From Caldimonas tepidiphila (lineage in GTDB: Bacteria > Pseudomonadota > Gammaproteobacteria > Burkholderiales > Burkholderiaceae_C): 64,000 nt of DNA. The translations under genes were made by a program, and so were the position numbers. Where the stretch lies: assembly GCF_003569765.1 (NCBI RefSeq), contig NZ_KZ983958.1:22806-86805 (forward strand), in the 5' to 3' direction. Each line of letters begins with the position of its first letter. Positions within the stretch are counted from its first letter, which is position 1. Below, in pieces: positions 56,484-60,145 of the stretch. The notes beneath the pieces were generated by a model. It did no database searches and was not told the DNA's origin. It saw only the letters and a list, made by a program, of their open reading frames with translations.

Positions 56484-57170
56484 TTACAGCATCAGGAAGC
56501 GATAGAGGTTGCGCAGCATCGCGGCGGTCGCGCCCCAGATGAAGTAGCGGTGGCGCCCGGCCCCGCCGTCCTCGTGCGGCCAGGGCATCGACAGGAACTC
56601 GCGCCGGCCGCCCTCGAACTCGAAGACATGGCGGCGGTGGTGCGCCGGCTGCATCAGGAAGGCGAGCGGCACCTCGAACACCTCGTCGACCTCGAAGGGG
56701 TCGGGGCGCAGCTCGAAGCCCGGCCGCACCAGCGCCACCACCGGCGTGACGACGAAGGCCGTCACGGTCGTGTAGGGCGGCATCGTGCCGATCACCTCGA
56801 CATGGCGGCGATCCAGGCCGGTCTCCTCCTCGGCCTCGCGCAGCGCGGTGGCGGCGGCGTCGGCGTCCTGCGGCTCGCTGCGCCCGCCGGGAAAGCTGAT
56901 CTGCCCGGCATGGGCGCGCAGGTGCGCGGTGCGCTGCGTCAGCAGCACCGTGGGCTGCTCGCGCAGCACGATCGGCACCAGCACCGCGGCGGGGACCGGC
57001 GGCCGGTCGTACAGGCGCGGCTCGGCGGCGAGCTCCGGCTGCCAGTCGGCGGGCGGATGGCGGAAGCGCTCGCGCAGCGCGTCGGGCTGCAGGCGCTCGG
57101 CCGGCACCGGCGGCAGGTGCGTGTCGGTGCCGAGCACCGGCACGCTGCGGGGATCGGTGATCAGCGCCAT
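56484..57170 (-). CDS. Nudix hydrolase, CoA pyrophosphatase type
   Basis: A 228-residue Nudix enzyme. The Nudix box Gx5Ex7REUxEExGU is intact: GGRSEPQDADAAATALREAE followed by EETG. The preceding LRAHAGQISFPGGR is the extra signature of NudL/CoA pyrophosphatases (LLTxRxxxLRxHxGQxxFPGG), which cleave coenzyme A to phosphopantetheine and 3',5'-ADP. It lies downstream of the rplS terminator and upstream of the CobD-like gene on the same strand. Confidence 0.92.
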   Translation of the reverse strand: MALITDPRSVPVLGTDTHLPPVPAERLQPDALRERFRHPPADWQPELAAEPRLYDRPPVPAAVLVPIVLREQPTVLLTQRTAHLRAHAGQISFPGGRSEPQDADAAATALREAEEETGLDRRHVEVIGTMPPYTTVTAFVVTPVVALVRPGFELRPDPFEVDEVFEVPLAFLMQPAHHRRHVFEFEGGRREFLSMPWPHEDGGAGRHRYFIWGATAAMLRNLYRFLML

Positions 57171-57193
57171 GGGAGACGATCAGGAGCCCAAAG

Positions 57194-57228
57194 AAAAAAC
57201 CGCCGCGGCGCGAGGCACACGGCGGTTT
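57194..57228 (-). terminator. Intrinsic terminator of the rpsP-rplS operon
   Basis: On the minus strand AAACCGCCG (57228-57220) pairs with CGGCGGTTT (57205-57197) and runs into T6 (A-run 57194-57199). It lies 52 bases after the rplS stop and ahead of the Nudix gene. Confidence 0.85.
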
Positions 57229-57279
57229 GCGTCGACACCCGCGGGGCGGGCATCGGGGACCGGAAGGCGGCCGTCCGGA

Positions 57280-57633
57280 TCAGGACAGCTTTTCCTTGAT
57301 GCGTGCCGACTTGCCGCTGCGCTGGCGCAGGTAGTAGAGCTTGGCGCGGCGCACGTCACCACGGCGCTTGACCTCGATCGAGGCGATCAGCGGGCTGTAG
57401 AGCTGGAAGGTCCGCTCGACGCCTTCGCCGCTGGAGATCTTGCGCACGATGAAGCTGGAGTTCAGGCCGCGGTTGCGCTTGGCGATCACGACGCCCTCGT
57501 AGGCCTGCACGCGCTTGCGGGTGCCTTCGACGACGTTGACGTTGACGATCACCGTGTCGCCGGGGGCGAACGCGGGGATGGTCTTGTTCAGACGCGCGAT
57601 TTCTTCCTGCTCGAGTTGAGCGATCAAATCCAT
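57280..57633 (-). CDS. rplS: 50S ribosomal protein L19
   Basis: A 117-residue ribosomal protein at the interface of the two subunits. [52 protein letters not shown] and [20 protein letters not shown] are family hallmarks. AGGAGAA precedes the ATG. Last gene of rpsP-rimM-trmD-rplS; a promoter-like TATAAT overlaps the trmD stop 137 bases upstream, so it may also have its own transcript. Confidence 0.98.
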
Positions 57634-57757
57634 GGTTTTCTCCTGGGATCGTGTCGGAGGCTTCTGAGTGCGGCAGGCAATGCCCGCCATGTAAAGCGAG
57701 GGGACGCCGCGGTCGGCGCCCAAGAAAATTCCCCGCTTCGTGCTCCGCCAGAGGATC

Positions 57758-57775
57758 GAAAAGCCTTCGATTATA
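57758..57775 (-). promoter_or_regulatory. Promoter core before rplS, repeat of the rpsP promoter core
   Basis: The minus strand reads TATAATCGAAGGCTTTTC, starting at the trmD stop codon. It matches 17 of 18 bases of the sequence upstream of rpsP (59578-59595). TATAAT is a perfect -10; no good -35 is seen. Confidence 0.5.
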
Positions 57776-58535
57776 GCCCAAGCGTGGCGAGGTAGCGTTC
57801 GTCGGCCTTGCTCAGGCGTCCCGCGGCGCGCGCGGCCTCGATCAGCTCGGGCCGCCGCTCGGCGGTGATGCGCAGCGACTGCTCGCGCCGCCAGCGCGCG
57901 ATGTCCGCATGATGGCCCGACAGCAGCACCGGCGGCACCGGCCGCGGGCCCTCGGGCGTGTCGAGCACCTCGGGGCGGCTGAAGTGCGGGCAGTCGAGCA
58001 GCCCCTCGGAGAAGCTGTCCTGCACGTGCGACTGCGCGTCGTTGAGCACGCCGGGCTGCAGCCGCGTCACCGCGTCGAGCAGCGCGAGCGCCGGCAGCTC
58101 GCCGCCGGAGAGCACAAAGTCGCCGAGGCTCAGCTCGAGCTCGACATGGCGGTCGACGAAGCGCTGATCAACCCCCTCGTAGCGGCCGCACAGCAGCGTC
58201 GCGCCCGGGCCCTGCGCGAACTCGCGCACGAGCGCCTGGTCGATGCGCCGCCCAGTCGGCGTGAACAGCACCAGCGGCGTCGCCGGATACCCGGCCTCGG
58301 CCTGCGAGGCGCGGATCGCCGCGAGCGAGCGCTCGAGCGGCTCGGCCAGCATCACCATGCCGGGCCCGCCCCCGTAGGGACGGTCGTCGACGCGGCGGTA
58401 GTTGTCGTCGGCGAAGTCGCGCAGCTGCCATAGGCGCACGTCGACCTGCCGGCTCTCGTAGGCGCGACGCGTCACGCCCTGCGTCAGGAAGGGCGCGAAC
58501 AGGTCGGGGAAGAGCGTGATGACGTCGAAGCGCAT
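57771..58535 (-). CDS. trmD: tRNA (guanine-37-N1)-methyltransferase
   Basis: A 254-residue SPOUT enzyme that methylates G37 next to the anticodon to prevent frameshifts. [41 protein letters not shown] and the knot segment [21 protein letters not shown] are complete. It is in the conserved ribosomal operon between rimM and rplS. Confidence 0.98.
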
Positions 58536-58590
58536 CGGGATCGGGGACCGGCTCGAAGGGCCGGCGGCACCGGCGAGGCGCCGCGCCGGC

Positions 58591-59175
58591 TCAGTAGTCC
58601 AGGCCCCAGTCGACCGTGATGCGCCGCTCGGGCAGGCTCACCTGGTCGATGTAGGCGCCGACGAAGGGGATCAGGCGCTCGACCGGCGGCTTGCCGGCCT
58701 CGGCCGGCTCGCCGAGCACGCGCAGCACCGAGTGGGCGCCGGTGTCGAGCATCTCGGCGACGGTGCCGAGCGTCTCGCCTTCGCGGTTCACGACCGTCAG
58801 GCCGATCAGGTCGACCCAGTAGTACTCGTCCTCGGCAGCTGCGGGGAAGCTCGCGCGCGACACGAAGATGCGCGCGCCCCGGAGCGCCTCGGCGGCGTTG
58901 CGGTCCGGGATCTCCCGGGCGCTGGCGACGATCCCGTCGCCATGCTCGCGCACGGCGGTGATCCTGATTTGTGCGGGGAACGGCGCGCCGGGCACCGGCG
59001 GCCGGTTCTCGGCCGGCTGGAGAAACCAGCGGCGCGAGGAGAACAGGGCCTGGGGATCGCTGGAATAGGACTGGACCTTGATCCAGCCCTTCACGCCCCA
59101 GGCGTCGAGCACGCGCCCGACCTCGACCGCATCCTCGGGCCAGGACGGCTCGACCTGGGAATCGGAGGTGCTCAT
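58591..59175 (-). CDS. rimM: Ribosome maturation factor RimM
   Basis: A 194-residue 16S rRNA processing protein that binds S19. The N-terminal RimM barrel ([19 protein letters not shown]) is followed by a PRC-barrel ([33 protein letters not shown]). It ends ITVDWGLDY, typical of the family. Position between rpsP and trmD is standard. Confidence 0.97.
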
Positions 59176-59206
59176 CGCGAGGTCAGGCGGGTGTCGAGGA
59201 CGGGTC

Positions 59207-59464
59207 TCAGGCCGCGGCGACCTGGGACTGGGCCTGCTTGACCAGGCGGGCGACGGTCGGCGACATCTGCGCGCCGACGCCGGTCCAGTAGGCCAGGCGG
59301 TCGTGCGACAGACGCAGGCTCTCGGCGGCGCCGGAAGCCACCGGGTTGTAGAAGCCGACGCGCTCGAGGAAGCGGCCGTCGCGGCGGTTGCGCGAGTCGG
59401 CGACGACGATGTTGTAGAAGGGGCGCTTCTTGGAGCCGCCGCGGTTGAGTCGAATGACGACCAT
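59207..59464 (-). CDS. rpsP: 30S ribosomal protein S16
   Basis: An 85-residue ribosomal protein. [39 protein letters not shown] and [20 protein letters not shown] are diagnostic. AAGGAA precedes the ATG at 59464; the longer open frame upstream is non-coding leader. First gene of the operon. Confidence 0.98.
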
Positions 59465-59577
59465 GCTGTTTCCTTTGAATCTCTTTAGCGACCACCGCAC
59501 CAGGAGACACTCAGGCGCGAAGAATCCGGTTCCTCCCGCAAAGTAGATACGCACGGCCACCCGGCCACGCCATTGCG

Positions 59578-59595
59578 GAAAAGCCCTCGATTATA
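59578..59595 (-). promoter_or_regulatory. rpsP operon promoter core
   Basis: The minus strand reads TATAATCGAGGGCTTTTC. TATAAT (59595-59590) is a perfect -10; TTCGCA about 18 bases upstream is a weak -35. This leaves a leader of roughly 120 bases before rpsP, within the space where an S16 feedback structure could form. Confidence 0.65.
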
Positions 59596-59671
59596 TGACG
59601 GAGAGCGAAGCCCTGCGAAGCGCTGCGGCAGTCCCTGCGCCGCGACCCCTGCCGCACTACAGTTGCCGACC

Positions 59672-60145
59672 ATGAGCATCGCCCGCAGCGCCCCCTCCAT
59701 GCCCGCCCGCTACAAGTCCAAGACGCTCGCGACCTGGCTCGCCTTCCTCGGCGGCGGCCTCGGGCTGCACCGCTTCTACCTGCATGGCGCGGGCGACCCC
59801 CTCGGCTGGCTGCACCCGCTGCCGACGCTGCTCGGGCTGCTCGGCGTGTGGCGACTGCGCGAGTTCGGGCAGGACGACCGCCTGTCGTGGCTGCTGATCC
59901 CGCTGCTCGGGCTGATGCTGGCCGCGACGATGCTCGTCGCGATCGTCTACGGCCTCACGCCCGACGAGAAGTGGAACGCGCGCCACAACCCCGGCGGGCG
60001 CGAGCACCGCACCGGCTGGCTGGCGATCATCGGCGTGGTGGCGGCGCTGATGGTGGGCGCGGGCATCCTGATGGCCACCCTCGCCTTCGGGCTGCAGCAC
60101 TTCTTCGAGTGGCAGTTCGAGGAGGCGCGGCGCATCAGCCAGTGA
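59672..60145 (+). CDS. TM2-domain membrane protein
   Basis: A 157-residue inner-membrane protein. The first part carries the TM2 signature (TLATWLAFLGGGLGLHRFYLHG), with further helices near 45-60, 75-98 and 120-145. TM2 proteins are poorly understood. The ATG at 59672 is chosen; an ATG at 59699 (MPARYKSK) would fit the domain equally well. It diverges from rpsP and converges on the DUF47 gene. Confidence 0.82.
   Translation: MSIARSAPSMPARYKSKTLATWLAFLGGGLGLHRFYLHGAGDPLGWLHPLPTLLGLLGVWRLREFGQDDRLSWLLIPLLGLMLAATMLVAIVYGLTPDEKWNARHNPGGREHRTGWLAIIGVVAALMVGAGILMATLAFGLQHFFEWQFEEARRISQ

Follow-up and report, generated by a model that had tools for sequence, protein, structure and literature searches.

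Candidate autoregulatory RNA leaders for L19 and S16, each behind a promoter-like sequence, in the rpsP-rimM-trmD-rplS operon of Caldimonas tepidiphila

Described leaders and the trmD operon

The trmD operon of Escherichia coli consists of the same four genes, rpsP-rimM-trmD-rplS, as the locus of Caldimonas tepidiphila analysed here, and the accessible text of a 2024 review (PMC10931766) presents it as a rare case of a ribosomal-protein operon for which no information on the control of expression exists. Leaders of its two ribosomal protein genes have been described in other lineages. In Firmicutes, and also in Flavobacteria, a conserved 5'-UTR structure likewise stands before rplS (RF00556) and is presumed to serve feedback by L19, as given in the accessible part of PMC7247131; Table 1 of the same paper holds a predicted S16 leader of Flavobacteria, likewise placed directly 5' of rpsP (and rimM). 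The 20 newly published leaders in that accessible part include the one for S16 in Flavobacteria and none specific to Betaproteobacteria, and a further 35 earlier leaders are placed in the supplement, outside this comparison for Betaproteobacteria. The accessible parts of PMC6429828, PMC4603805 and PMC3766115 contain no such element, and the B. cenocepacia start map gives TAnAAT as the -10 consensus. Neither the leaders described below nor a transcription start map for the family was found in our literature search, which covered freely accessible main texts (as distinct from supplements and subscription papers).

Set against the E. coli operon, that of C. tepidiphila is marked by two leaders and by a promoter-like sequence where trmD ends. 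A scan of positions 56900-60000 of the window (the whole 64,000-nucleotide stretch that was analysed) with Rfam 15 at E up to 5 matched neither leader and gave two chance matches elsewhere; a scan of eight relatives at E up to 1 again matched neither and gave four weak matches elsewhere. The RF00556 covariance model itself had no match in either set. The Firmicutes leader belongs to a different lineage and is set apart from the rplS leader here by this Rfam scan. The Flavobacteria S16 leader, which also comes from another lineage, is known here by its description; the Rfam scans, which would show such a leader if Rfam includes it, brought up nothing of its type.

Promoter-like sequences 5' of rpsP and rplS

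Pfam assigned the genes, in order, to S16, RimM, TrmD and L19 (Table 1), and close TrmD relatives occur in Aquabacterium, Ideonella, Roseateles, Rubrivivax and other Burkholderiales. A sequence-only reading of the window had pointed out near-identical 18-mers at rpsP and rplS. This observation was confirmed: TATAATCGAAGGCTTTTC (57758-57775, minus strand) lies 5' of rplS and TATAATCGAGGGCTTTTC (59578-59595, minus strand) 5' of rpsP, with one base different between them and a distance of about 1.8 kb. Random occurrence of the 18-mer, which would have spoken against its significance, was seen in none of 100 dinucleotide shuffles of the window, and the window holds no third copy at up to three mismatches. 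The genome-wide search that the same reading had proposed, carried out in the C. tepidiphila genome (5.47 Mb, 178 contigs) at up to one mismatch, yielded one further copy, TATAATCGAAAGCTTTTC, 5' of the S12 gene rpsL.

Table 1. Features of the rpsP-rimM-trmD-rplS locus (window coordinates)
Feature	Position	Strand	Remarks
rpsP (S16)	59207..59464	-	PF00886
rimM	58591..59175	-	PF01782
trmD	57771..58535	-	PF01746; stop TAA 57771-57773 inside the rplS -10 element
rplS (L19)	57280..57633	-	PF01245
rpsP promoter -10 element TATAAT	59590..59595	-	scan: TTCGCA-18-TATAAT, 10/12
rplS promoter -10 element TATAAT	57770..57775	-	conserved in relatives
rpsP leader hairpin, candidate S16-binding element	59529..59584	-	R3 36.0 bits, E 1e-5; next best in window 20.2 bits
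rpsP hairpin, conserved 3'-side bulge GUAUCUA	59544..59550	-	pattern G[TC][GA]TCT[CA][ACT]
Second GUGUCUCC stretch in rpsP leader, past the GUAUCUA bulge	59503..59510	-	
rplS leader core, candidate L19-binding element, to start codon	57631..57758	-	R2 41.8 bits, E 1.4e-10; R1 56.6 bits
rplS leader 5' arm: C GATC, internal-loop side CUCU, upper-helix arm GGCGGAG	57743..57758	-	
rplS leader 3' arm: CUCCGAC, loop side AC, GATC	57647..57659	-	
rplS Shine-Dalgarno AGGAG	57640..57644	-	2 nt past the 3' arm
Terminator-like hairpin and T run 3' of rplS	57194..57228	-	stretch 57181-57245 folds at -27.9 kcal/mol

Both promoter-like sequences are conserved in the Burkholderiales family of C. tepidiphila, from which 81 loci (80 and the window) were examined. 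The pattern TATAMT-N4-RGYTTT stands 5' of rplS at 58 of the 76 loci retained for this gene (left out were L019, and L037, L079, L087 and L088, which are without rplS). At rpsP, TATAAT-N4-RGYTT was found in 58 of 72 loci; these 72 were retained for having TATA, so that a count of TATAAT in 72 of 72 would be circular. The rows set aside for rpsP were L019, L029 and L052 (weak -10), L034, L047 and L089 (without TATA), L065 and L074 (without rpsP) and L083 (wrong match). In a simple promoter scan, rpsP has a -35-like hexamer and rplS has none.

The rplS 18-mer overlaps the trmD stop codon, and at 45 of 47 loci with a decidable frame trmD ends on the TAA of TATAAT (of 76 loci examined, 29 gave no decision). 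On the far side of the gene, a terminator-like hairpin with a T run follows rplS (Table 1), at a place where a pattern scan with a loop limit of 8 reported no terminator. A private promoter together with this hairpin means that, with both transcript ends predicted from the DNA, L19 could be made both from a one-gene transcript and by read-through. The proposal that L19 can be made independently of RimM and TrmD is therefore upheld insofar as these two features would make L19 separable, and weakened by the lack of a -35-like hexamer at rplS.

The consensus extends beyond this operon. In the C. tepidiphila genome TATAAT-N4-GGYTTT occurs at eight sites, against none for the reversed pattern, namely at rplS, rpsP, the S6 and L31 genes, a metallo-beta-lactamase-fold gene (gloB-like), an amino-acid kinase gene (lysC-like), a zinc-ribbon gene (fmdB-like) and a putative rplC. 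The longer TATAAT-N4-GGYTTTTC was found at 49 sites in 33 of 60 family genomes, again against none for the reversed pattern. Twenty-nine new loci, one per genome rather than all 49 sites and with Pfam run on one member of each kind, comprised 16 rplS, 3 rpsP, 6 rpsL, 1 rpsU, 2 zinc-ribbon fmdB-like genes and 1 carA. Since the sequence recurs at other translation genes, we regard the likeness of the two 18-mers as that of a shared promoter and start consensus, and TATAAT-N4-GGYTTTTC, as judged from its distribution, is a promoter and start consensus favouring translation genes. The putative rplC (L013, G000:C32:60437-60452), preceded by TATAAT-N4-GGCTTT, lies beside a putative rpsJ in an apparent S10 operon and had no Pfam match. 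In three genomes (L173, L227 and L239), an fmdB-like zinc-ribbon gene likewise follows the start consensus.

Structured leaders downstream of the promoters

The sequence-only reading took the conserved early transcribed bases as a hint of start-site control. This misses that conservation continues downstream into two different structured RNA leaders; past the rplS promoter, GGCTTTTC continues into GATCCTCTG in relatives. In the rplS leader, a covarying helix carries a conserved internal loop, CUCU/A, and stops directly 5' of the Shine-Dalgarno sequence. Its arms read GAUC-CUCU-GNCGG and CCG-(often bulged G)-NC-AH-GAUC, facing each other across a loop of very variable length. TCCTCT is present in 76/76 retained leaders, and 12-24 bases separate the end of the 3' arm from the start codon in the family (L035, whose anchor was misplaced, left out).

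Among the alignments made for the two leaders, A2 (59 of 70 rows) was too wide to model. Covariation in the rplS leader was measured on a MAFFT alignment of 32 sequences (A5; 25 family rows and 7 others). The value for 12 pairs was 0.324 against 0.106 for shuffled alignments, with none of 500 shuffles as high, where the structure was drawn from such sequences and the shuffles leave sequence relatedness in. Ten of the 12 pairs changed on both sides, and the swaps in the lower helix include GAUC/GAUC to GUUC/GAAC and to CAUC/GAUG. Covariation was weaker on the 76 family leaders (0.168 versus 0.094), for which 45 of 500 shuffles equalled the number of pair types.

A covariance model of the rplS leader, R1, matched 201 of 250 family genomes, with one match each, and 5 of 200 genomes of the order, all five belonging to the same family as C. 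tepidiphila. All 35 fetched R1 loci, which include the own genome and the 30 best-scoring loci of the family search, directly abut rplS. The wider model R2 had matches in 9 of 250 order genomes at E 0.01, eight of them at rplS (four in the own family, and G003, G009, G141 and G482 in others) and one, L182 in G136, elsewhere. In the class, 2 of 274 genomes were matched, one of them the own genome; in the other, G614, no rplS is seen at the matched locus L244. Within the window, the next-best R2 match scored 10.0 bits. R2 missed two genomes whose sequences had been used to build it (G007 and G017) and two found by R1 (G049 and G093), and R1 found G171 in the order search and not in the family search. 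Since the strict filters lose matches, every genome count given for the leaders is to be read as a lower bound, and the genomes searched may include some of those that trained the models.

In a further search L19 was matched in 58 of 60 genomes, and 30 of those loci were fetched and read. The leader core is present at 7 of the 28 other-family loci that were read, where CAUC/GAUG replaces GAUC/GAUC and no TATAAT occurs in the 230 bases shown. This retention of the core indicates selection on the RNA and not on promoter DNA alone. As TATAAT is missing from some other families that retain the leader, the promoter of rplS may be younger than the L19 leader. The other-family locus L155 has TACCAT at the equivalent position, possibly a weaker promoter. 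At L136, a locus of another family without the leader core, TAGAAT-CAAA-GGCTTAGC was observed 5' of rplS.

In the window copy of the rplS leader, the upper helix contains one G-A mismatch, and the outermost pair of the lower helix is C-C. Folded as a lone strand this copy had a z of -2.22, with 5 of 200 shuffles as stable, and the GAUC/GAUC helix was absent from this fold; the lone-strand folds of L028 and L033 do form the conserved lower helix.

The hairpin of the rpsP leader differs from the rplS structure and starts at the same place relative to the promoter. Its conserved feature is the 3'-side bulge GURUCUM, which reads GUAUCUA in a Rubrivivax-like group and GUGUCUC in a Comamonas-like group. 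The bulge pattern (Table 1) is present in 71 of the 72 retained leaders, the exception being L042; L037 and L039 fit the pattern through a later copy alone. Like the second GUGUCUCC stretch of the window, a GTGTCTC is found further down the leader in 34 of 71 rows, and leader length varies widely. Alignment A3 comprises 46 of 71 hairpins, without the hairpins that have long inserts and without some near duplicates. Covariation in the closing stem was 0.512 against 0.271 for shuffled alignments, and 38 stem cells changed on both sides against 14.3 after shuffling, values reached by none of 500 shuffles in either case; each of the five stem pairs had changes on either side, as was also the case in 70 of 500 shuffles. 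The covariance model R3 matched 129 of 200 family genomes, with a second weak match in G240 and G248, and the 30 best-scoring loci that were fetched all lie 5' of rpsP. By eye, no hairpin of this type was seen in 11 other-family rpsP upstream regions (12 fetched stretches). The rpsP leader of the window was no more stable than its shuffles (z -0.30).

Proposed regulation and alternative explanations

Based on the position, conservation and covariation of the two structures, we consider the rplS and rpsP leaders probable candidates for autoregulation by L19 and S16, each behind its own promoter. In ribosomal-protein leaders, the usual logic is that the protein clamps a structure beside the Shine-Dalgarno sequence and thereby blocks the 30S subunit. 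Here, each gene would have its own sigma-70-type promoter, from which the transcript would start near the shared GGCTTTTC and pass immediately into a gene-specific structured leader. In the likeliest mechanism, surplus L19 would bind the CUCU/A internal loop, clamp the helix beside the ribosome-binding site and block initiation, and this block would act on private and read-through transcripts alike. S16 probably binds the 5'-terminal rpsP hairpin with its GURUCUM bulge, in the same sense of feedback. L19 would be the natural ligand of the rplS leader because rplS is found at every checked R1 site and because the terminator-like hairpin appears to leave this gene alone on its private transcript. 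For the rpsP hairpin the natural ligand by position would be S16, which is less certain since three more genes follow. That the operon is under two separate feedback loops, by S16 at its front and by L19 at the internal promoter on the trmD stop codon, we rate at about even chances. If so, these loops would separate S16 and L19 from the two modification enzymes. The two elements would add two leaders in Betaproteobacteria, and as short, well-defined RNAs with conserved loops they make regulation of the trmD operon testable.

Several explanations of the likeness between the two 18-mers do without such leaders or give their 5' ends another role. The suggestion of two identical promoters holds in that both are conserved in the family, and fails for a matched pair. 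Gene conversion, or a need for exact co-expression, could have kept the promoters alike, as their single mismatch in 18 in the own genome would suggest, but agreement between the rpsP and rplS promoters averaged 12.81 of 18 positions within a genome and 12.64 across genomes (p about 0.11; 68 genomes), equal within error, and a score of 17/18 was reached in only 3 of the 68 genomes, the own genome included. Matched-pair evolution was rejected on this comparison, and we regard this explanation as hardly credible. A likeness of function, with the GGCUUUUC 5' end as an anti-Shine-Dalgarno sequence masking the start sites of both genes, is suggested by the minimum-energy folds of both window leaders, where this end is paired to the Shine-Dalgarno region. 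It was unsupported by permutation: own duplexes were significantly better than genome-permuted ones in none of eight settings, being weaker on average in seven and slightly stronger in one (rpsP, 8 and 20 bases), where 107 of 300 permutations were as good. Six of the eight settings also did not beat letter-shuffled 5' ends; the exceptions, both with the 10-base rplS 5' end, gave -5.34 and -5.51 versus -4.36 and -4.70 for shuffled 5' ends. An anti-Shine-Dalgarno role is accordingly very improbable. The two genes might also share only a strong-promoter consensus, TATAAT-N4-GGYTTTTC being a promoter of translation genes plus early transcribed sequence and the bases downstream having no part in regulation. 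The abundance of this sequence in the family against its absence in reverse, and its recurrence at several translation genes, are in its favour, and it accounts for the 18-mer. However, it explains neither the covarying helices downstream nor the rplS leader that persists in other families where TATAAT is missing, and we think it unlikely that consensus is all there is.

With the leaders accepted as structured, they might bind something other than L19 and S16, such as a host factor, an RNase or another ribosomal protein, and serve RNA stability or growth-rate control in place of autoregulation. In favour of this, the search for rRNA mimicry was negative for both proteins. Local comparison of eight leaders with 23S rRNA gave no significant match (36 to 195 of 200 shuffles were as good), and TCCTCT is absent from the sense strand of the 23S gene. 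Over 63 rpsP leaders there was no excess of similarity to 16S rRNA, with a mean score of 10.36 versus 10.22 for shuffled sequences. In a subset of rpsP leaders, L069 and its close kin, 12 of 13 bases agree with the own 16S gene at positions 386-398; shuffles as good numbered, per 300, 2 for the L069 20-mer, 13 for L060, 87 for L050 and 235 for L075. Resemblance to an rRNA site, a frequent though not required trait of ribosomal-protein leaders, was not found overall in either. Of the traits by which such leaders are judged, a conserved structure supported by covariation is present in the rplS leader and the rpsP closing stem, as is a consistent position 5' of a ribosomal protein gene among the fetched loci (R1 35/35, R3 30/30, R2 8/9). 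Against another ligand, all checked R1 matches stand at rplS and all checked R3 matches at rpsP, and the private transcript of rplS seems to comprise this gene only. Binding of a different partner therefore appears improbable to us, and autoregulation by L19 and S16 is the reading that we prefer.

At rpsL, in the str operon (L003:1380-1700, L226 and L242), the same start consensus is followed by seemingly common leader bases, GGCTTTTCGGCA, which possibly form a third leader. In one relative, BcKCsr2 (Burkholderia sRNA 2) gave an Rfam match below threshold (E 0.0095, 29.3 of 40 bits) near the 3' end of rplS (L014:4182-4319).
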